From positions 542,447-606,446 of the forward strand of contig NZ_BAABFP010000005.1 of NCBI RefSeq assembly GCF_039541115.1: DNA of 64,000 nucleotides, written 5' to 3'. The first letter of the stretch is position 1; every line of letters starts with the position of its first letter. The DNA comes from Angustibacter luteus (GTDB taxonomy: Bacteria > Actinomycetota > Actinomycetes > Actinomycetales > Angustibacteraceae). Below, in pieces: positions 27,537 to 38,613 of this stretch. The notes under the pieces were generated by a model. That model worked only from the letters and a program-made list of their open reading frames with translations, had not been told where the DNA came from and searched no databases. A program made the translations under genes and the position numbers.

Positions 27537-28742
27537 CTACGTGAAGGCGGACAGTCCCGTCGCCTCGCGCCCCAGGATCAGCGCCTGCATCGAGTCGGTC
27601 CCTTCGTAGGTGTAGACGACCTCCATGTCCGTCATGTGCCGGGCGACGTGGTAGTCGAGCAGCACTCCGTTGCCGCCCAGCACGTCCCGGGCGTCGAAGG
27701 TCACCTGCCGGGCCATCCGGGCCGACGTGAGCTTCGCCATCGACGCCATCGCAGCGGTCAGCCGGTCCCGGTCCTGCAGCTCGGCCATCCGGAAGCACAG
27801 CAGCTGCAGGTGCGTCACCGCGGTGAGCATCTCGGCCAGCTTCATCTGGACGAGCTGGAAGCTGCCGATCGGCTGGCCGAACTGCTCCCGCTCCTGCGCG
27901 TACGTCAGGGCGATCTCGTAGCAGGCGATGGCGTGGCCGAGGCACTCCCAGGCCACTCCCCCGCGCGTCGCCGTCAGGACGCGGTTGACGTCGTCGAACG
28001 AGCTGGCCCCGGCCAGCCGGTTCTCATCCGGTACCCGCACGCCGTCCAGCCGGACGTCGGGCTGCCAGACCGCACGTTTGCCGATCTTGCCGGTGATGAG
28101 CTCCGTCGAGTAGCCCGGCGGGTCCTCGCCGTCCGTCCGCTCGACGACGAAGCCCTTGACCTCGCCGTCGGCCTCGTCCCTCGCCCATACGATCACCAGG
28201 TCTGCGAACGAGGCGTTCCCGATCCATCGCTTGCGTCCGTCGATGACCCAGTAGTCGCCCTCCCGCCGGGCGGTGGTGCCCAAGGCCACTGAATCCGATC
28301 CGTGGTCCGGCTCGGTCAGGCCGAACGCGCCGACGAGCTCGAGCCGGGCCATGTCGGGTAGCCACCGTTGCCGCTGCTCCTCACTGCCCAGCAGGTGGAT
28401 CGACCCCATCGCGAGCCCGGAGTGCACCCCGGCGAACGTGTTCAGGCTCCCGTCACCGCGGGACAGCTCGAGACTGACCAGGCCCGCGGCGAGCCGGCTG
28501 AGCCCCGGGCAGCCGTAGCCCTCGATGGACAGCCCCGACACGTTGAGCGCCGCCAGCCCCTGGACCAGCTCGAAGGGGAACTCCGCCCGCTCCCAGTAGC
28601 CGTTGATGACCGGCAGCACCGCGTCGTCGACGTACGCCCGGACGCGGTCGCGCACCGCGCGGTCGTCGGCGGTCAGCCGCTCGTCCAGCAGGTAGAGGTC
28701 GGTGTCCAGGGCGGTCGTCAGGCCGGGCGTCAGGTCGCTCAC
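27537..28742 (-). CDS. Acyl-CoA dehydrogenase, glutaryl-CoA dehydrogenase-like
   Basis: A 401-residue FAD-dependent dehydrogenase. FAD-binding signatures are GAFGLTEPDHGSDSVAL and WIGNASFADL; the C-terminal helical region ends with VVYTYEGTDSMQALILGREATGLSAF, where the Glu in YEGT is the catalytic base of the glutaryl-CoA/isovaleryl-type group. The closest recognisable relatives are glutaryl-CoA dehydrogenases, which oxidise and decarboxylate glutaryl-CoA in lysine/aromatic degradation; specificity cannot be fixed. Divergent from the small membrane-protein gene at 28864, with a perfect palindrome in between. Confidence 0.9.
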   Translation of the reverse strand: MSDLTPGLTTALDTDLYLLDERLTADDRAVRDRVRAYVDDAVLPVINGYWERAEFPFELVQGLAALNVSGLSIEGYGCPGLSRLAAGLVSLELSRGDGSLNTFAGVHSGLAMGSIHLLGSEEQRQRWLPDMARLELVGAFGLTEPDHGSDSVALGTTARREGDYWVIDGRKRWIGNASFADLVIVWARDEADGEVKGFVVERTDGEDPPGYSTELITGKIGKRAVWQPDVRLDGVRVPDENRLAGASSFDDVNRVLTATRGGVAWECLGHAIACYEIALTYAQEREQFGQPIGSFQLVQMKLAEMLTAVTHLQLLCFRMAELQDRDRLTAAMASMAKLTSARMARQVTFDARDVLGGNGVLLDYHVARHMTDMEVVYTYEGTDSMQALILGREATGLSAFT

Positions 28743-29326: not shown

Positions 29327-30262
29327 ATGGACGACGTCGTCGAGACACGGGGTCTGCAGAAGCGTTTCGGGAGCGTGCGCGCACTCGACGGGCTCGACCT
29401 GTCCGTGGCGCGCGGTGAGATCCACGGCTTTCTCGGGCCCAACGGGGCCGGCAAGTCCACGACGATCCGGGTCCTGCTCGGACTGGCCCGCGCGGACGGC
29501 GGCACCGCGCGGGTGTTCGGCCAGGACCCCTGGGCGGACGCCGTGGAGCTGCACCGGCGGATCGCCTACGTCCCCGGGGACGTCAGCCTGTGGCCGAACC
29601 TGTCCGGCGGGGAGATCGTCGACCTGATCAGCCGTCTGCGCGGCGGCACGTCGGACGCGGCCGGGTACGCGGCGCGCCGCCGCAGACTGCTCGAGGTGTT
29701 CGAGCTGGACCCGAGCAAGCGGGGTCGGGCCTACTCCAAGGGCAACCGGCAGAAGGTGGCCCTGGTCGCCGCGTTCGCCACCGAGGCCGAGCTGTACGTC
29801 CTGGACGAGCCGACCAGCGGCCTGGACCCGATCATGGAGACCGTCTTCAACGCCGAGGTGGAGCGCCTGGCAGCAGCGGGCTCCACGGTCCTGCTGTCCA
29901 GCCACATCCTGTCCGAGGTCGAGCGGCTCTGCCATCGGGTGACCATCGTGCGCGCGGGCCGGACCGCCGAGTCGGGCACGCTGGAGTCGTTGCGCCACCT
30001 GACTCGCACCGAGATCTCGTTCGCGGCGAACGGGATCGACCCGGAGTCCCTGGCGGCGATCGACGGCGTCCAGGACGTGACCGCCCTGGGCGGCCGGATC
30101 GCCCTGACGGTGGACAGCGACACGCTCACCACCGTCCTCCCGTCGATCACGGGGCTGGATGTGCGCGGGCTGACGGTCAACCCGCCATCGCTGGAGGAGC
30201 TCTTCCTGCGGCACTACGGCGAGGAGCTCGCCGCCACCGAGCACGCCGAGGGCGACCGTTGA
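29327..30262 (+). CDS. ABC exporter ATPase (DrrA-like)
   Basis: A 311-residue ATP-binding subunit of an ABC-2-type exporter. Walker A GPNGAGKST, an unusual signature region (AYSKGNRQKVALVAAFA, with SKGNRQK rather than the canonical LSGGQ), Walker B LYVLDEPTSGLDP and switch His in LLSSHILSEVE. The ~90-residue C-terminal extension after the core is typical of DrrA/antibiotic exporter ATPases. It overlaps the permease start by four bases (TTGA). Confidence 0.93.
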   Translation: MDDVVETRGLQKRFGSVRALDGLDLSVARGEIHGFLGPNGAGKSTTIRVLLGLARADGGTARVFGQDPWADAVELHRRIAYVPGDVSLWPNLSGGEIVDLISRLRGGTSDAAGYAARRRRLLEVFELDPSKRGRAYSKGNRQKVALVAAFATEAELYVLDEPTSGLDPIMETVFNAEVERLAAAGSTVLLSSHILSEVERLCHRVTIVRAGRTAESGTLESLRHLTRTEISFAANGIDPESLAAIDGVQDVTALGGRIALTVDSDTLTTVLPSITGLDVRGLTVNPPSLEELFLRHYGEELAATEHAEGDR

Positions 30263-31878
30263 CCACGTTCGGTCCTCTGCTGCGGCAACGGGTGCGCCGG
30301 GACCGCTGGCAGCTGGCGCTGTGGGTCGCAGGGACCGGCATCATGGCGGCCTTCTCGACCTCCGCGATCGCCCAGAGCTACGGGGACGACAGGTCTCGGC
30401 GGGCGATCATGCTGCTGGCGACGGAGAACCCGTCGATCCTGATGCTGCGCGGCCTGCCGGCCGGCTACGGCTTCGGCGCCTTCACGTTCTTCGAGATCTA
30501 CGCCTTCCTCGCGCTGCTGGCGGGCCTGATGAGCACCTTCCTCGCCGTGCGGCACACCCGGGCGGAGGAGGAGAGCGGTCGGGCGGACCTGGTGACGGCC
30601 ACGCCCGCGGGGCGGACCGTGCCCTTGGTGGCGACCCTGGCTCATGGACTGCTGGCGAACGTCGTGCTCGGGCTCGTCGTCGCACTGGGATTCCTCAGCG
30701 CTGGCCTGCCGGTCACGGGCTCCTTCGTGGCCGGTGCGGCCGTGGCAGCAGCGGGGCTGGCGTTCCTCGGCCTGGGACTCGTGTGCGCCCAGTTCCTGCG
30801 CACGTCGCGCGGCGCCAACGGCGCGGCGGCCGCGCTCGTCGTCCTCGCGTACCTCCTGCGCGGCCTGGGTGACTCGCTGTCTCGGCCGGGCGCCGACGAG
30901 CTGCACCGCGTGGCCGCGTGGCCGAGCTGGCTGTCGCCCATCGGGTGGGGACAGCAGACCGGCGCCTGGACCGGGAACGCGCTGTGGCCGCTGCTGCTCA
31001 GCCTGTGCTTCACCGGTGCCTGCGGCGCCGGGGTCCTGGTCCTGCAGGAGCGTCGGGACACGGGCGCGAGCCTGCTGCCGTCCCGCCGCGGCCGGGACCG
31101 CGCCCGCCCGGCACTTGGCAGTCCGTCCGCCCTGGCCTGGCGCCTGCAGTGGCCGACCATCCTCGGCTGGTGCGTCGGCGGCGCGGCCACGGGGCTCCTG
31201 GCGGGATCGTTGACCCACCTGGTGGACCAGGTCTCGGATGCGGACGAGAACGTCGTCGACACCTTGCGCTCGATGGTTCCCGGGACGACGCAGACGCTCA
31301 CCCAGCTCCTCATCGCGGCCATGTTCGGCGTGGCTGGGGTACTCGCCGCCGCGTGCGCCGTCCAGGTGGTGCTCCGACTGCGCCAGGAGGAGAGCGCCGG
31401 CACCGCAGAGGTGCTGCTGGCCACGCCCGTGGACCGGACGCGCTGGCTGCTCGACTACGTCGTGCTGGGCGTCGTCGCGGTCGTCCTCGTGATGGCCGCC
31501 ACGGCGGTCGCCGCCGCGCTCGCGCTGCTCGGGTCGGGTGAGGACGTGGCCCGCGTGGGCGACGCCTTCGTCGCCGGCCTGGCCCAGCTGCCCGCCGCCC
31601 TGCTGTACCTCGGCGTCCTGGCGCTGGGGTTCGTGTTCCTGCCCGGCGTGGTGATCGGGCTGGGCTGGGGACTGCTGGCCCTGGGGGTCGCGCTGGGCAC
31701 CTTCGGCGGCATGGTCGGTGCCCCGCAGTGGTTGCGCGACCTGTCCCCCTTCACCCACACGCCGGTCCCCGGGGCGGGGGTGGCCAGCTGGACCGGCGGG
31801 CTGTGGATGCTCGCTCTGGCCGTCGCGGCGACGGCTTTGGCCGCATCCGGCATGCGTCGGCGCCAGCTCCGCCCGTGA
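30259..31878 (+). CDS. ABC-2-type exporter permease, double-length
   Basis: A 539-residue membrane protein with about 12 hydrophobic segments in two halves, typical of the actinomycete 'polyketide antibiotic exporter' permeases. Both halves contain the matching cytoplasmic segments RAEEESGRADLVTATPAGR and RQEESAGTAEVLLATPVDR, showing an internal duplication. The start is a TTG overlapping the ATPase stop (TTGA); no ATG or GTG in this position is available. The exported compound is unknown; no biosynthetic genes lie next to it. Confidence 0.9.
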   Translation: MTTFGPLLRQRVRRDRWQLALWVAGTGIMAAFSTSAIAQSYGDDRSRRAIMLLATENPSILMLRGLPAGYGFGAFTFFEIYAFLALLAGLMSTFLAVRHTRAEEESGRADLVTATPAGRTVPLVATLAHGLLANVVLGLVVALGFLSAGLPVTGSFVAGAAVAAAGLAFLGLGLVCAQFLRTSRGANGAAAALVVLAYLLRGLGDSLSRPGADELHRVAAWPSWLSPIGWGQQTGAWTGNALWPLLLSLCFTGACGAGVLVLQERRDTGASLLPSRRGRDRARPALGSPSALAWRLQWPTILGWCVGGAATGLLAGSLTHLVDQVSDADENVVDTLRSMVPGTTQTLTQLLIAAMFGVAGVLAAACAVQVVLRLRQEESAGTAEVLLATPVDRTRWLLDYVVLGVVAVVLVMAATAVAAALALLGSGEDVARVGDAFVAGLAQLPAALLYLGVLALGFVFLPGVVIGLGWGLLALGVALGTFGGMVGAPQWLRDLSPFTHTPVPGAGVASWTGGLWMLALAVAATALAASGMRRRQLRP

Positions 31879-31888
31879 TCGCGCGTCG

Positions 31889-33082
31889 CTAGTCCTCGAA
31901 GGTCTCGGACCCGGTCGGCTCGACGTGCTGGGTGTCGTTCATCCGCTGGCGCAGCTTGGCCAGCTCGTAGTACATCGTGCGCCGGGCGCGGTTGGAGTTC
32001 CCGAGCGGCTGGTGCTCGGTCAGGCTGTGCCACGGGTTGTACCGCAGCGCGTCCGCGAACCGCAGCTGCGCGTCGGAGTCGAAGCGCTGCCGCACCAGCC
32101 GCAGCTCGGCGACCGGAACATACGGGGACAGCCGCTCGGGCCAGTGCACGCAGGCGTTCTCGATCGGCATGCGGTGGGGATCGGTCTGCACCTGCACCAT
32201 GAAGTCCATCAGCCAGTCGCCGTCGGCCAGGGTGGAGGAGATCGCGTCCCGCAGGTAGTTCTCCTTCGCGTGCACCGGGATCCGCGACCGGCCCTGCTGT
32301 CGCGGCCTCAGCGAGTACTGCACGGCCTGGCCGGGCCCCAGCAGGAAGGGCACGTTGCTGTAGTAGCGATCCTCGACCGGGTTGGCGTGCATGGGCGAGT
32401 AGAGCAGCTGCATCGCCAGGTGAATCCAGTGCTTGGGGTTGAACGCGTAGCCCAGGGGCGCCTTCGCGCGCACCCAGCGCTGCATCTTCGCGTTCTCCTT
32501 GATGTCCGGGGTCACGAAGGCCGCGGGCGTCACCAGGATGAGGTCCTGGGTGCCCTGCTCGTCCTCCATCAGCTTCGGGCCAGGGACGCCCATCACCTTG
32601 ATCCCCACGGAGCACTGCCCGAAGTCCTCCAGGTCCGGCGGGGCGAAGGGTCCGGGCCCGGAGAACCGCACCCACGCCGGGTACACCCCGGGAGTCGCGA
32701 ACAGCCCGTGCCGCAGGGGCTCAGGGACGTCGTCGCGCACCGTGAACTCGGCCCGGAGCACGCCGTAGGTCTTGGTGTTGCCGAAGCGCTGGACCGCGCC
32801 GGGAAGCCAGTTCTCCCGCATGAACAGGGCGATCTCGTCGATGATCTGCTGGACCAGACGGTCCTCGTCGGGTAGGAGCCGCTCCTGGGCCAGCTCAAGG
32901 TGCTCGTCGCGCCGGAAGAGGTTCTGCAGCCACTGCGCGGACGCGAAGAGCGGCGGTCGCAGCCACCGGTCGAACCAGCGCCGGTACAGGAACTCGAAAC
33001 GGCGTTCCACCCTCCAGATCCAGAGCACCAGGTCGCTGAGCGGTCGCAGGACGTAGAACGTGAAGGCCCCCTGCGGGTTCAC
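31889..33082 (-). CDS. Catalase-related haem protein
   Basis: A 397-residue member of the catalase fold family related to catalase-like allene oxide synthases and hydroperoxide lyases. After an N-terminal amphipathic region (WIWRVERRFEFLYRRWFDRWLRP, perhaps membrane-associated) come TYGVLRAEFTVRDDVPEPLRHGLF, YPAWVRFSGPG, GIKVMGVPG, TQDLILVTPAAFVT and YNPWHSL...HQPLGNSNRARR, all family landmarks. Where ordinary small catalases have H-x-K-x-H-G, this protein has N102-T-K-T-Y-G. I do not find the classical R-x-F-x-Y proximal motif of large catalases. GTG start overlapping the DyP-gene stop (GTGA). Last gene of the leftward haem operon. It most likely converts fatty-acid hydroperoxides rather than H2O2, given the dioxygenase nearby (inference). 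Confidence 0.8.
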   Translation of the reverse strand: MNPQGAFTFYVLRPLSDLVLWIWRVERRFEFLYRRWFDRWLRPPLFASAQWLQNLFRRDEHLELAQERLLPDEDRLVQQIIDEIALFMRENWLPGAVQRFGNTKTYGVLRAEFTVRDDVPEPLRHGLFATPGVYPAWVRFSGPGPFAPPDLEDFGQCSVGIKVMGVPGPKLMEDEQGTQDLILVTPAAFVTPDIKENAKMQRWVRAKAPLGYAFNPKHWIHLAMQLLYSPMHANPVEDRYYSNVPFLLGPGQAVQYSLRPRQQGRSRIPVHAKENYLRDAISSTLADGDWLMDFMVQVQTDPHRMPIENACVHWPERLSPYVPVAELRLVRQRFDSDAQLRFADALRYNPWHSLTEHQPLGNSNRARRTMYYELAKLRQRMNDTQHVEPTGSETFED

Positions 33083-34500
33083 GTCGCCGCTCCTGGGCCC
33101 GCAGCCGCACGGGTCGCCAACCAGCGCAGGGCGCTGATACCGGGGAGGAAGAAGTAGCCGCCGCCGCGGACCCGCACGAACTGTGGCAGGTCCCGGTAGC
33201 GCCGGCGCACCGGTGTCGCCGGAGCCGAGAACGTCGCCCCGGCTCCCCGGCCGGTGCCGACCCGGACGCCGACCAGCGGGTCGGACGCGTCGTCCAGCAG
33301 GTTGAAGCCCGGGTCGTTCAGCCAGCTGTGCTGGATGAACTCGAACTGGCGGGCGAGGTTCGCGTTGAGGCAGAGGAAGTACAGCCCCTGCTCGACCGTG
33401 CCGTCCTCGCGCTGCGTCCGGTAGGCGCGGCCGCGGCGCAGGATCCGGTGCCGGCGATTGACGTCCAGCGAGGACGCCGTCCCGGGCTTCGGCGCCAGGG
33501 CGTCGCGGGGGTTGGCGCGTCGTACGTGCGCGCCGATCGGGCACCCCAGCCCATCCGCGTCGTTGGCGTGGTAGCCGAACTCGTTCGCCTCCGCGTGAGT
33601 GGGGTTGTCCTGCTGCGGGTCCAGCGTCAGCGGCGCACCGCTGGGCCAGCGGCCGACGAGCTGCGCACCGAGCAGTGCGGCGGCTGCCGGGTCGGCGCTG
33701 CCGTCGCTGCGCCGGGTGGCGTCGGCCAGGTACTCGTGGAAGGCGTCGACGTGCTGCTCCAGCTGGCGGAGCACGAGGTAGGAACCGTTGCGCCCGAGGT
33801 CGGCGGCGCCGTCCGCCCGGGGCAGCAGGCGTTCGGGGTCGGCCGAGTCGGCGAGCAGTGGCCGCTCCGTCAGCTGCCCGTACTCGTTGGGGTACCCGAG
33901 GACGAACTCCCCGGACCGGACGGCGCCGGGCGGGTCACTCGCCCCCGGCAGGCCGGTCAGCAGCGGCTGGGAGATGCCGTCGTGGAAGCCGAACGGCTCG
34001 TTCGGACCCAGCGTGTCCGTCGCGAGCTCGCCGGCCAGGGCGAGGCCGCTGCCCTCGGCCTGCGCGACCAGCTCTGTCTGCAGCTGGGTCAGTGCGGCGG
34101 CGCTGGCCGCGTAGACCAGCACCAGCACGTGCACCGTCGGCGTGGTCGGGCCACCCCAGTCCCAGGTGGCCGGACCGTCGTCCCCCTGGTCGCCCAGCAG
34201 CCGGCTCCGGTACGCCGTCGCCATGCCGGTGGTGAACTGCTGCGAGAAGCCGGCGGTCACCCCGTCGCCGGCGAGCGCGCGCACGCCCTCGGCGGTCAAC
34301 GCCACCTGGATCGCGCTGTCCTGCACCCGTTCCAGCGCCGAGGTGACCCGGCCCGCCCAGTCAGCCAGGACGGTCCCGGCGGCGGCGGACTCACGCACCT
34401 CCAGCAGGAGGAACGTGGCCTCGGGCAACGCCCCGTGTCCACGCAGGACCAGGCCCTGGATGTCCGCGAGGTCGAGGTCGCGGGTGGCTGTCGCGGTCAC
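33079..34500 (-). CDS. DyP-type haem peroxidase
   Basis: A 473-residue dye-decolorising-type peroxidase. The hallmark GFHDGIS is at 171-177 (distal Asp174), the proximal haem His is H325 in GCPIGAHVRRANPRD, and the distal Arg region and C-terminal YFFLP motif are present. Two tandem ferredoxin-like halves make up the fold. No twin-arginine signal, so it is cytoplasmic or associated with its operon partners. GTG start and stop both sit in GTGA overlaps with the neighbouring membrane-protein and catalase-related genes. DyPs oxidise a wide range of substrates using peroxide; here it may use hydroperoxides made by the divergent dioxygenase (inference). Confidence 0.93.
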   Translation of the reverse strand: MTATATRDLDLADIQGLVLRGHGALPEATFLLLEVRESAAAGTVLADWAGRVTSALERVQDSAIQVALTAEGVRALAGDGVTAGFSQQFTTGMATAYRSRLLGDQGDDGPATWDWGGPTTPTVHVLVLVYAASAAALTQLQTELVAQAEGSGLALAGELATDTLGPNEPFGFHDGISQPLLTGLPGASDPPGAVRSGEFVLGYPNEYGQLTERPLLADSADPERLLPRADGAADLGRNGSYLVLRQLEQHVDAFHEYLADATRRSDGSADPAAAALLGAQLVGRWPSGAPLTLDPQQDNPTHAEANEFGYHANDADGLGCPIGAHVRRANPRDALAPKPGTASSLDVNRRHRILRRGRAYRTQREDGTVEQGLYFLCLNANLARQFEFIQHSWLNDPGFNLLDDASDPLVGVRVGTGRGAGATFSAPATPVRRRYRDLPQFVRVRGGGYFFLPGISALRWLATRAAAGPGAAT

Positions 34501-35771
34501 AGCAGGGCCAGCCACTCGGCGGCCTGCGGCTGGTCCGGATGGCCCGCGAGGCCCCGGCGCAGGGCGGCGTTGCGGTCGATCCGGGGTGCGTGCAGCTCGG
34601 GGTAGGCGGAGTACCAGACCACCGTGGGCACCTGGTGACGGCGCAGGTAGCGCTTGAAGGCTGTCTCGTCGCGGGCGCCGCCGAACAGCAGCCAGCGGGT
34701 GGACGGGTAGCCGACACCGTTGCTGAACACCAGGTTCAACCCCCACGCCAGGCGGTCGATGAAGTCGTTCATGTAGCTCTCCTGGCTGCCGTCATAGCTG
34801 CTGGCGAAGACCAGCCGGCGCCCGCCGTCCAACGGCACCCACCGGGCGAAGTGCAACGACGTCACCCCGGCCAGCGTGTGGCTGTTGAACACCAGCCGGT
34901 TTCCCAGGTCGAGGCCGAGGAGAGCGACCCGCATCGTCGTGGCCCGGACGAATCCCGGTTTGACGAAACCCACTGCGGTGAACGGGTTCTGGGTGGCCCA
35001 GTCCTCGTACTGCTCCACGTCGTGGACGTGGTCGAGGTCCACCGGTCCGGTCTCCGGAACGTCCCGCAGCTCGTGCACCCGGAGCAGGAGCAGGAAGACC
35101 ACCAGCACCACGACGAGCAACGGCAGCAGGACGAGGGCGACGAGTCCCAGGGCCACGAGCACGACGAGCGAACGCAGCTTGGAGGGCGAACCCGCCCGCG
35201 AGGCGGGGTGGCGCGCCCACCCGAGGTCGGCCCGGTCCGTGACGGCGTCGCGCAGCCGGGCGTGCAGGGAACGGGCGTCAGCACCAGCACGGACGTTCGC
35301 CGGCAACCCGTCCACCTCGTCGGCCAGGGCCGCGCTCAGCGCCGCCTCGTCGAGGACCTGTCGCAGGGTCCGCCCGATCGTGTGCACGTACACGGCGGCC
35401 GGGCGCAGGCTGTGCTCGGTCAGCCAGGCCACGCGTCCCTGCACCGAGGGGTGGGCCGGGTATCCGAGGCACCGCCCGAACAGCGCGTCCAGGCCCGGTC
35501 CGGCCACGGTCGCCAGCTCCAGCAGGTGGGCGGGCTCGTCGGTGTCGACGTCGCACATGTAGACCAGCGACGGCGCGATGGTGCGACCCTCCAGGTCCTC
35601 GACCTCCTCCAGCACGAAGACCCGGGCGAAGTGCACGCCGTACAGGGACCCGAAGGGCAGCATCGAGTCGCCGCCACCGGCGGCGCGGATCTCGCGCAGC
35701 AGCGCGATCGTGTCCCCGACGGCGCCGTCGGCGAGGGTCGCCCGCACCGTGACGGCCGTCTGCCTCGTCAC
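34497..35771 (-). CDS. Membrane protein with duplicated HFAR domain, unknown
   Basis: A 424-residue protein with a central hydrophobic segment (about 195-230, LVVLVALGLVALVLLPLLVVVLVV) that makes one long or two short membrane spans. The flanking domains look homologous: N-terminal SLYGVHFARVFVLEE...PSLVYMCDVDTDEPAHLLEL and C-terminal SLHFARWVPLDGGRRLVFASSYDGSQESYMNDF. The alternating strand pattern with HFAR resembles the ferredoxin-like barrels of the DyP/chlorite-dismutase superfamily (inference). It overlaps the DyP gene by four bases and follows the 161-residue unknown gene by four. Possibly an anchor or accessory for the peroxidases. Confidence 0.7.
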   Translation of the reverse strand: MTRQTAVTVRATLADGAVGDTIALLREIRAAGGGDSMLPFGSLYGVHFARVFVLEEVEDLEGRTIAPSLVYMCDVDTDEPAHLLELATVAGPGLDALFGRCLGYPAHPSVQGRVAWLTEHSLRPAAVYVHTIGRTLRQVLDEAALSAALADEVDGLPANVRAGADARSLHARLRDAVTDRADLGWARHPASRAGSPSKLRSLVVLVALGLVALVLLPLLVVVLVVFLLLLRVHELRDVPETGPVDLDHVHDVEQYEDWATQNPFTAVGFVKPGFVRATTMRVALLGLDLGNRLVFNSHTLAGVTSLHFARWVPLDGGRRLVFASSYDGSQESYMNDFIDRLAWGLNLVFSNGVGYPSTRWLLFGGARDETAFKRYLRRHQVPTVVWYSAYPELHAPRIDRNAALRRGLAGHPDQPQAAEWLALL

Positions 35772-35775
35772 GCGG

Positions 35776-36261
35776 TCAGCTCTCGCCGACCGGACTGCGC
35801 AACGTGAACCAGCCGACCCGCTTGCGCCACATCCACACCACGCCGAGATAGAGGCCCGGTGCGACCAGCCGGATCTCGTCGCGCACCATCCGGGCCACCT
35901 CGGACGTTCGCGAGTAGTCCAGGACCACGCAGTCGCGGTCGTCGACCCAGCTCGGGACGACGTCCAGCTGGGCCGGGATCAGCCGCAGCCGCAGGGGGCT
36001 GACCTTGTTCTTGAGCAGGCGGTGCTCGTGGCTGACGACCTTGCCCTGCCAGGCGACCACGTAGATGGCGGCGGCGAGCGGTTTGGCGACCGCAGTGCCC
36101 GGGAACATCAGCACGGTGCCGCGCATGTTGCCGCTCGGGACGTCGCCGGAGGGGCTGACCCGGAACAGCGCGTCGAGCTCGCGGTTGGTCATGGCGAGCA
36201 GCCGGGGCTCGTCGACCAGCAGACCGACGGGCGCAGGCTCTCCGGAGGGTTCAGCGGTCAT
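35776..36261 (-). CDS. Conserved protein of unknown function in haem operon
   Basis: A 161-residue protein starting at the ATG at 36261; the open frame extends to 36360 but the extra N-terminus is Arg-rich and overlaps the divergent leader. Core segments are RVSPSGDVPSGNMRGTVL (Gly-rich), AAAIYVVAWQGKVVS, DYSRTSEVARMVRDEIRLVAPGLYLGVVWMWR and a closing strand RVGWFTL. The RDEIR...PGLYLG pattern is one I associate with a family found near haem peroxidases, with no assigned function. It could be a lipid- or ligand-binding partner. First gene of the leftward haem operon. Confidence 0.65.
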   Translation of the reverse strand: MTAEPSGEPAPVGLLVDEPRLLAMTNRELDALFRVSPSGDVPSGNMRGTVLMFPGTAVAKPLAAAIYVVAWQGKVVSHEHRLLKNKVSPLRLRLIPAQLDVVPSWVDDRDCVVLDYSRTSEVARMVRDEIRLVAPGLYLGVVWMWRKRVGWFTLRSPVGES

Positions 36262-36422
36262 CGACGCGCTCCTCTCGTCGACCGACCGGACGACGTCCGG
36301 CCGGACGATTCCACGATCCTCTGCCCTTGATCGTCTTGTAAAGGAGATGCCCGTTGACACTGCTGGCCGCGCGCTGCGACTGTGGCCATGCCGTCAGGCC
36401 GCCTGCGAAAGGGGCGCAGCCC
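36262..36422. promoter_or_regulatory. Divergent promoter region of the haem-protein locus
   Basis: This 161-base interval separates the leftward peroxidase operon from the rightward dioxygenase pair. It contains a perfect TTGACA at 36354-36359 (+ strand), although a good -10 at the right distance is not evident, and AAGGAG at 36341-36346 that could instead be a ribosome site for a TTG start at 36354. It should carry promoters for both arms, so co-regulation is likely. Confidence 0.45.
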
Positions 36423-36785
36423 ATGGATCCGAGCCTGGCCCGGAAGCTGCTCGCGGCCGTGCGCCTGGTCAACGGGGTGCTCGGCCTGCTGGCCCCGTCT
36501 TTCCTGCTGCGCCGTCTGGGGACGGACCCGGCGGTCGACCGCTCCGGCTACTACCCGTTCCGGATGTTCGGCGTCCGCACCATCGTGATCGGGGCCGACC
36601 TCCTGCTGCTGCAGGGTGAGCAGCGCCGGCGCGCCGTCCGCCTCGCCGTCCTGATCCACGCGTCGGACACGGTGTCCGCCGCCACGGCCGGGCTGCGCGG
36701 CGACCTCCCCCGCAAGCCCGCCGTCATCACCACGGCGATCTCCGCCACCAACACCGCGCTCGCGATCATCGCCACCCGGGAGTAG
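36423..36785 (+). CDS. Small hydrophobic protein paired with the dioxygenase
   Basis: A 120-residue protein with three weakly hydrophobic segments (LVNGVLGLLAPSFLL, FGVRTIVIGADLLLL, a late ITTAISATNTALAIIA). The pattern LVNGVLGLLAPSFLLRRLG...YPFRMFGVRTIVIGADLL resembles small DUF4267-like membrane proteins, though I am not certain. The ATG has AAAGGGG about nine bases upstream; the alternative TTG at 36354, with AAGGAG seven bases ahead, would add 23 residues (containing CDCGH). It ends four bases before the dioxygenase start, so it is surely co-expressed with it. Possibly a membrane partner. Confidence 0.65.
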   Translation: MDPSLARKLLAAVRLVNGVLGLLAPSFLLRRLGTDPAVDRSGYYPFRMFGVRTIVIGADLLLLQGEQRRRAVRLAVLIHASDTVSAATAGLRGDLPRKPAVITTAISATNTALAIIATRE

Positions 36786-36789
36786 CGCC

Positions 36790-38613
36790 ATGGCACGAAC
36801 GTCTCCGTACCGCTCCGGCCTGGTCTGGACGGTGTACGACCGGATCTGCGAACGGATCGACCGCCGGGTCGGCTGGGACAAGCTCCCCCGCCCGCTGGCG
36901 CTGCTGCTCCTCATCGGCATCCGCAACAACCTGCGCCGCGAGAACCTCTTCGACACGAACGTCGCGCCCGCCACGAACCTGCCGCCGCTCTCGGAGCCGT
37001 CCGCGCAGACCCGGTCCCAGCGCACGCCCGATGGCACCTACAACGACCTCGAGACCCCACGCATGGGCATGGCGGGAGCCCGGTTCGGCCGCAACGTCCC
37101 GCTCGCCGCAGGGGCAGCCGAGACCGGCGACCGGCTGATGACCCCCAACCCGCGGGTGGTCAGCCGCCGGCTGATGACCCGGACGACCTTCCAGCCGGCG
37201 ACGACCGTGAACGTCCTGGCGGCCACCTGGATCCAGTTCATGGTCAAGGACTGGTTCTCGCACGGCGCCGGCGACGCGACCCGGCCGTTCGACGTGCCGT
37301 TGCCCGACGGCGATCCCTGGCCGACTCCGCCCATGCTGGTCCCGCGGACGCTGGCGGACCCCACCCGCAGCGGTCAGGAGGACGGGTACCCGCCCACCTT
37401 CACGAACATCAACACGGCCTGGTGGGACGGCTCCTCCATCTACGGGAGCAGCACCGACCAGCAGCGGGTCATCCGCTCCGGCGTCGACGGCAAGCTGAAC
37501 GTGTCCGCCGACGGCATGCTGATCCTGCCCGACGACCCGAGCCTGAACCCCACGCTGGTCCCCGGGTTCTGGACCGGACTGGCGATGATGGGCGGCCTGT
37601 TCACGCTGGAGCACAACGCGGTCTGCGACCACCTGAAGGCGGCCAACCCGACCTGGTCGGACGAGGAGCTCTTCCAGCGCGCCCGCCTGGTGGTCTGCGC
37701 GCTCATCGCCAAGATCCACACGGTCGAGTGGACACCCGCCATCATCAGCCACCCGACCACGGTGACCGCCCTGCGCGCGAACTGGTTCGGGCTGGTCGGC
37801 GAGCGCTTCACCCGAACCTTCGGCCGCATCAGCGGCAGCGAGATCCTCAGCGGGATCCCGGGCTCGGAGACCGACCACTACGGCGTGCCCTACTCCCTCA
37901 CCGAGGAGTTCTCGATCGTCTACCGGATGCACCCGCTGATCCCGGACGACTACGCGGTGCGGTCCGCGGTCGACGACGCGCACATCGCCGACTACACGTT
38001 CCGGGACCTGGCCGGGCCGGCCGGCGGTCAGGTCCTGCAGGACGTCGCCATGGCCGACCTGCTGTACAGCTTCGGTACGGCCAACCCCGGCGCCATCGTG
38101 CTGAACAACTTCCCCCGCTTCCTCCAGGAGTTCGAGCGCCCGGACGGCAAGCTGGCCGACCTGGCGGCCACCGACATCCTGCGCACCCGCGAGCTGGGCG
38201 TCCCGCGCTACAACGAGTTCCGGCGGCTGCTGCACCTCGACCCGGCGACCAGCTTCGCCGACCTCACCGGCGGGGACCACGGGCTGGCCGCCACGCTGGA
38301 CGACGTCTACGGCGGCGACCTCGAGGCCGTGGACACGATCGTCGGCATGTTCGCCGAGCAGCGCCCGACCGGCTTCGCGTTCAGCGACACGGCGTTCCGG
38401 ATCTTCATCCTGATGGCGTCGCGGCGGCTGAACAGCGACCGGTTCCTCAGCTCCGACTTCACTCCCGAGGTCTACAGCCCGGCCGGGTTCGCCTGGGTGC
38501 GGGACAACGGGTTCACGTCCGTCCTGCTGCGCCACTACCCCCAGCTGCGGCCGTGCCTGCACGGCGTCAAGAACCCGTTCGCCCCCTGGGTGAGCAGTAG
38601 CGGGCCGGCCTGA
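36790..38613 (+). CDS. Alpha-dioxygenase/cyclooxygenase-like haem peroxidase
   Basis: A 607-residue animal-haem-peroxidase-superfamily protein closest to plant alpha-dioxygenases, which insert O2 into fatty acids. Landmarks in order: WIQFMVKDWFSH (147-158), WWDGSSIYGS (211-220), LEHNAVCDHL (273-282), ALIAKIHTVEW (304-314), LRANWFGLVG, and YSLTEEFSIVYRMHPL (368-383), with Y378 at the catalytic-radical position and H381 as proximal ligand. The Q-x3-H distal His of this family is Q149-x3-Lys153 here. The N-terminus has a hydrophobic/amphipathic stretch (PLALLLLIGI) that may bind membranes. The length is close to the plant enzymes (~620-640). Coupled to the small gene upstream. Confidence 0.88.
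   Translation: MARTSPYRSGLVWTVYDRICERIDRRVGWDKLPRPLALLLLIGIRNNLRRENLFDTNVAPATNLPPLSEPSAQTRSQRTPDGTYNDLETPRMGMAGARFGRNVPLAAGAAETGDRLMTPNPRVVSRRLMTRTTFQPATTVNVLAATWIQFMVKDWFSHGAGDATRPFDVPLPDGDPWPTPPMLVPRTLADPTRSGQEDGYPPTFTNINTAWWDGSSIYGSSTDQQRVIRSGVDGKLNVSADGMLILPDDPSLNPTLVPGFWTGLAMMGGLFTLEHNAVCDHLKAANPTWSDEELFQRARLVVCALIAKIHTVEWTPAIISHPTTVTALRANWFGLVGERFTRTFGRISGSEILSGIPGSETDHYGVPYSLTEEFSIVYRMHPLIPDDYAVRSAVDDAHIADYTFRDLAGPAGGQVLQDVAMADLLYSFGTANPGAIVLNNFPRFLQEFERPDGKLADLAATDILRTRELGVPRYNEFRRLLHLDPATSFADLTGGDHGLAATLDDVYGGDLEAVDTIVGMFAEQRPTGFAFSDTAFRIFILMASRRLNSDRFLSSDFTPEVYSPAGFAWVRDNGFTSVLLRHYPQLRPCLHGVKNPFAPWVSSSGPA

Follow-up and report, generated by a model that had tools for sequence, protein, structure and literature searches.

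Gene content of the locus

The 64,000-nucleotide stretch of the Angustibacter luteus genome analyzed here (contig NZ_BAABFP010000005.1, positions 542,447 to 606,446; hereafter the window) contains, at positions 31889-38613, six genes in two divergent groups (Table 1): reading outward from the center, P161-MEM-DYP-CAT on the minus strand and P120-DOX on the plus strand. Adjacent genes overlap by 4 bases (GTGA) at CAT/DYP and DYP/MEM and are separated by 4-base gaps at MEM/P161 and P120/DOX, and ~160 bp lie between the starts of the two groups. These gene limits agree with an earlier note on this DNA, which had described a leftward four-gene set with such overlaps and gaps, divergent from a rightward pair; the note counted five families, whereas the module has six genes, the first rightward gene, left unnamed there, being the DUF4267-like P120. 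From the gene families and predicted folds, together with the conserved linkage, the fusions and the residue changes, we consider it reasonably probable that the six genes form one membrane-associated fatty-acid peroxidation unit, of which we infer the substrate, product, order of steps and protein contacts.

Table 1. Features of the six-gene locus (window coordinates)
Feature	Position	Strand	Description
CAT	31889..33082	-	catalase-superfamily (catalase-related) haem protein, 397 aa
DYP	33079..34500	-	dye-decolorising peroxidase, 473 aa
MEM	34497..35771	-	membrane protein, 424 aa
P161	35776..36261	-	161-aa protein; beta-barrel predicted, calycin-like (FABP/lipocalin-like); putative lipid carrier
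Divergent intergenic region common to both gene groups	36262..36422	no strand	putative promoters
P120	36423..36785	+	small hydrophobic protein, 120 aa, DUF4267-like
DOX	36790..38613	+	alpha-dioxygenase-type haem oxygenase, 607 aa

Conservation of the gene set

A gene-neighborhood search of the kind that the earlier note had proposed finds the families together elsewhere. All six lie on one strand in an actinobacterium (L173, genome G748; P161-MEM-DYP-CAT-P120-DOX), and a second actinobacterium (L172, genome G775) has the one-strand order P120-DOX-P161-MEM-DYP. Moreover, in a Pseudonocardia metagenome-assembled genome (MAG), one contig (L058) carries P161-MEM-DYP, broken off within DYP, and P120 in divergent orientation; another (L150) opens with the remainder of DYP, after which come DOX and CAT. 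We infer that the two contigs adjoin, which again gives all six families. Five families, in the order DOX-CAT-P161-MEM-DYP-CAT, are found in a Desulfocapsa MAG (L060) and a gammaproteobacterial MAG (L063). Apart from the window, the set is thus present in at least four lineages, and a chance neighborhood is rejected; given that the same genes are grouped in distantly related bacteria, they probably belong to one machine.

The arrangement on opposite strands in the window, together with the occurrence of MEM-DYP without DOX in most loci, could also be read as two unrelated neighboring operons, MEM-DYP(-CAT-P161) and P120-DOX. However, the two groups share one strand in L173 and L172, DOX stands between DYP and CAT in the Pseudonocardia MAG, and L060 and L063 repeat the set in other phyla, so that conserved linkage already largely refutes this explanation, which we regard as very improbable.

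The dioxygenase and its distal residue

DOX belongs to the An_peroxidase (Animal haem peroxidase) family (PF03098; E 3e-101 in Pfam). Its best matches in PDB are plant alpha-dioxygenases (alpha-DOX), aligned end to end (E 1e-117 to 5e-113; 4kvj, E 1e-117), whereas the matches to cyclooxygenases (COX) are far weaker (E about 1e-18 for COX-1). A homologue on a plasmid of Calothrix sp. PCC 6303 is 49% identical to DOX over 586 residues. The catalytic Tyr378 and the proximal His381 (VYRMH), counterparts of Tyr379 and His382 of the rice enzyme, are retained, as are the carboxylate-site residues His310 and Thr315. Judged by sequence, DOX is a fatty-acid alpha-dioxygenase and, being of this type, is expected to yield a 2-hydroperoxy fatty acid as its primary product.

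The distal position, occupied by His157 in rice alpha-DOX, is only partly conserved across the family (PMC8720084), so that a distal His is not a strict requirement for membership. Among the 37 actinobacterial DOX sequences readable at this column, 14, falling into two clades, carry Lys or Arg, which rules out that the Lys153 of the window is a local oddity or an error. In the absence of a distal His, partner proteins may help to form the Tyr radical. A P450 gene adjoins other actinobacterial alpha-DOX genes (L049, L163-L165, L185).

P120 resembles DUF4267 below the Pfam cut-off (E 1e-4). It adjoins 9 of the 14 Lys/Arg-type DOX genes (one via a putative contig junction) as opposed to 1 of the 23 His-type genes. 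A strict one-to-one pairing of P120 with a basic distal residue is ruled out, since L161 combines P120 with His, and is also countered by five basic-distal genes that have no P120 in the flank read.

The catalase-related protein and its coupling to the dioxygenase

Single-sequence searches with CAT against Pfam, NCBIfam and PDB returned no match; a profile of 12 members matches 3e4w (E 7e-14), which we take to be the catalase-related protein of Mycobacterium avium paratuberculosis, as well as typical catalases and the coral allene oxide synthase (cAOS) 1u5u (E 5e-6). The proximal R367xxxY371 is kept, its Tyr being invariant in the 12 members and the RxxxY motif present in all CATs, and the protein bears a hydrophobic N-terminal extension. 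Asn is found at the distal position not only in the window but also in the CATs of L060 (the 13 kb copy), L061, L063, L064, L150, L173 and L183; the CATs that are fused or occur with DOX only mostly retain HAK at this site.

DOX and catalase-related genes are adjacent or fused in L047, L048, L052-L054, L060, L063, L150, L173 and L183. Single open frames in other actinobacteria join them as DOX-CAT (L047) and as CAT-DOX (L052-L054), and these opposite orders indicate independent fusions. The existence of natural DOX-CAT and CAT-DOX fusions supports the proposal of the earlier note that the two enzymes act together. Between insertion sequence elements on a plasmid of Methylobacterium currus (L202:3419-5987), a gene for a divergent peroxidase-family protein lies beside a catalase family gene.

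P161

Neither P161 nor MEM matched a Pfam or NCBIfam family. The predicted structure of P161 is a beta-barrel whose best match is Tcur_1030 (E 1.3e-4); proteins that bind bile acids, retinoids or fatty acids come next, the matches of the fatty-acid-binding protein (FABP) type being weak (E 0.01-0.3). On this model, P161 is a putative calycin-like barrel that probably binds lipid.

The MEM-DYP core

DYP is a full-length DyP peroxidase (TIGR01413, E 1e-31, 110 bits against a cut-off of 100.5; PDB match 8re3, E 5e-52) that keeps the haem-pocket residues Asp174 of the GFHDG motif, the proximal His325 and the distal Arg355. The predicted fold of MEM (predicted local distance difference test score, pLDDT, 93) comprises two ferredoxin-like domains of the ABM/DABB type (about 5-130 and 261-390), and a membrane hairpin is predicted between them at about 196-235. 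The membrane partner of the earlier note is therefore upheld by the predicted hairpin, and the predicted ferredoxin-like fold led us to abandon the view of MEM as no more than a membrane protein. The nearest folds are ABM/SchA-like, namely WhiE-ORFI (9lmn) and the polyketide decarboxylase AbxO (9ltx), with a Foldseek E of 7e-5.

We searched about 85,000 species genomes for MEM and retained the 80 best loci, which come from Actinobacteria, Alpha-, Gamma- and Deltaproteobacteria, Bacteroidetes, Myxococcota and others. MEM lies directly upstream of a DYP gene in all 80, and in 59 of them a P450 is joined to the pair, as a fusion in 37 and as an adjacent gene in 22. The fusions (L101:5525-9973 and 36 other loci) are single P450-MEM-DYP frames of about 1450-1700 aa, mostly from Alphaproteobacteria; an annotated case is SARO_RS19865 of Novosphingobium aromaticivorans (1443 aa). 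Furthermore, of the 14 genomes that encode a basic-distal DOX, 6 also have a full-length MEM, as against 0 of the 19 in which every DOX is of the His type (Fisher p 0.003, an optimistic value given the relatedness among the genomes).

As a tentative generalization, MEM-DYP might be a widespread membrane peroxidase core with interchangeable haem partners: a P450, often in one P450-MEM-DYP polypeptide, in Alphaproteobacteria and Bacteroidetes, and, in Actinobacteria and part of the Proteobacteria, an alpha-DOX together with an Asn-type catalase. In the latter case, the dioxygenase without a distal His would rely on its partners, and not on its own peroxidase site, for the tyrosyl radical.

Genes for TPR proteins and for guanylate-cyclase+AAA or kinase+AAA proteins (L090:5985-7751, L127:4664-7780, L074:5949-9977) recur near MEM-DYP in alphaproteobacterial and myxobacterial loci, and a signaling input is possible. 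Six P450-MEM-DYP loci (L108, L113, L119, L126, L131, L133) also have in common a subtilase gene, a gene for an ECF sigma factor and a conserved frame of 256 aa for which no Pfam match was found.

Proposed function and alternatives

The six proteins can be arranged in the following scheme. P161 would supply or carry the fatty acid or the product. At the membrane, the Tyr378 radical of DOX would abstract the alpha-hydrogen, and addition of O2 would give the 2-hydroperoxy fatty acid. CAT and DYP would then convert this 2-hydroperoxide, either by reduction to the 2-hydroxy acid or by cleavage to the Cn-1 aldehyde, with MEM holding DYP at the membrane and P120 assisting DOX in the clade that has Lys or Arg in place of the distal His. 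By analogy with established alpha-DOX chemistry, the pathway would be expected to end in Cn-1 aldehydes or 2-hydroxy acids, and epoxides are unlikely.

Several observations weigh against this scheme. The distal His of alpha-DOX is replaced by Lys153 (QFMVKDW) in DOX, and Asn102 (RFGNTKTYG) occupies the distal His site of catalases and cAOS (His67) in CAT. With the usual distal His lost from both, the two enzymes may activate peroxide poorly or in another way, and the chemistry should not be assumed from precedent. Moreover, most MEM-DYP pairs go with a P450, so that the pair is not confined to fatty-acid dioxygenation, and most alpha-DOX genes have no neighboring MEM-DYP. CAT is missing beside the module in L172; the DOX of L060 and L063 is divergent, such that a search with the window DOX alone does not find it; and the confidence of the P161 model is only moderate (pLDDT 71).

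Some of the same features would fit a cassette that tailors some other lipophilic substrate, for instance a polyketide, a terpenoid, or a hopanoid or another membrane lipid, with a catalytic MEM of the ABM/SchA kind, haem enzymes that oxidize this substrate and a DOX redirected from its alpha-DOX ancestry: the best MEM folds are WhiE-ORFI and the AbxO decarboxylase, the P450 that mostly accompanies and is often fused to MEM-DYP is a usual tailoring enzyme, and the distal His of DOX has given way to Lys or Arg. However, no polyketide, terpene or non-ribosomal peptide synthetase genes were recognized beside the module, where the nearest flanks were annotated, DOX retains the residues of the fatty-acid carboxylate site, and P161, as modeled, resembles a fatty-acid carrier. 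We therefore deem such a cassette unlikely.

Less probable still is a defense against membrane lipid peroxides, in which CAT and DYP would scavenge lipid hydroperoxides and DOX would be a peroxidase, not an oxygenase. Two of the three haem proteins do come from peroxide-handling families, and MEM is a membrane protein, but DOX has the oxygenase Tyr and the carboxylate site and lacks the distal His required for peroxidase activity, CAT also lacks its distal His, and a scavenger would need no hydroperoxide-making enzyme linked or fused to CAT. Fatty-acid peroxidation at the membrane is accordingly the function that we favor for the six genes.

Relation to known systems

The earlier note had appealed to Nostoc punctiforme, in which, as mentioned in PMC13049297 (citing Brash et al., 2014), a linoleate 10S-dioxygenase is paired with a catalase-related hydroperoxide lyase; a cyanobacterial fusion of a catalase and a haem dioxygenase is cited in PMC11719350. 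The precedent holds as far as adjacency or fusion is concerned, DOX and CAT genes being adjacent or fused in the loci listed above; it fails for the type of dioxygenase, the Nostoc enzyme being COX-like (about 31% to COX) and the window DOX alpha-DOX-like and not a COX-like 10S enzyme. The window CAT also has a distal Asn, not His. We know of no MEM, DYP, P161 or P120 associated with the Nostoc dioxygenase/lyase pair.

DOX resembles the plant and cyanobacterial alpha-DOX enzymes (OsDOX, AtDOX, CalDOX, LepDOX; PMC8720084) over the whole length and in the Tyr/His pair and carboxylate site, but differs in Lys153 and in its linkage to CAT, DYP, MEM, P161 and P120; those enzymes have not been reported in such a module. 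The presence of alpha-DOX sequences in Actinobacteria has already been reported (PMC8720084). The allene oxide synthase-lipoxygenase (AOS-LOX) and hydroperoxide lyase-lipoxygenase (HPL-LOX) proteins of corals and cyanobacteria (PMC5617202) likewise have a catalase-family domain that converts the hydroperoxide of a coupled dioxygenase, and the CAT profile matches 1u5u; their dioxygenase, however, is a lipoxygenase, and cAOS keeps the distal His67 and Thr66 where CAT has Asn102. DYP shares whole-length similarity and haem-pocket residues with DyP-type peroxidases (8re3, DyP2); unlike these, module-type DYP is always preceded by MEM, and is fused as P450-MEM-DYP in alphaproteobacteria. MEM has in common with the ABM/SchA-like proteins (9lmn, 9ltx) the predicted tandem ferredoxin-like fold, and the fold type alone: identity is about 11%, the TM-score by query length is only 0.39, and in MEM the two domains are separated by a membrane hairpin.

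In the open-access literature, no account of the six-gene module was found, in line with the impression of the earlier note that this set of partners is undescribed, nor was any report of a DyP peroxidase with an alpha-DOX or any description of the MEM-DYP core. Thus, the tandem of a dioxygenase and a catalase-related protein is known, and the MEM-DYP core appears to be undescribed. Outside cyanobacteria, little is known of bacterial oxylipin biology, and the physiological role of DyP peroxidases is a long-standing question, for which the module provides a candidate natural substrate and partner set. The module also offers a test of how the tyrosyl radical of the COX superfamily can form without a distal His, and the analysis brings to light a large family of P450-MEM-DYP fusions.

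Genomic setting

Compared with a congener (G001), the locus lies in an accessory region: window positions 26.8-39.0 kb (about 12 kb) are absent there, with about 2 kb in their place, and searches of that genome for DOX and MEM found neither. No difference in GC content was seen for the stretch absent from G001, which also carries genes for an acyl-CoA dehydrogenase (27537-28742, minus strand) and an ABC transporter (29327-31878, plus strand).
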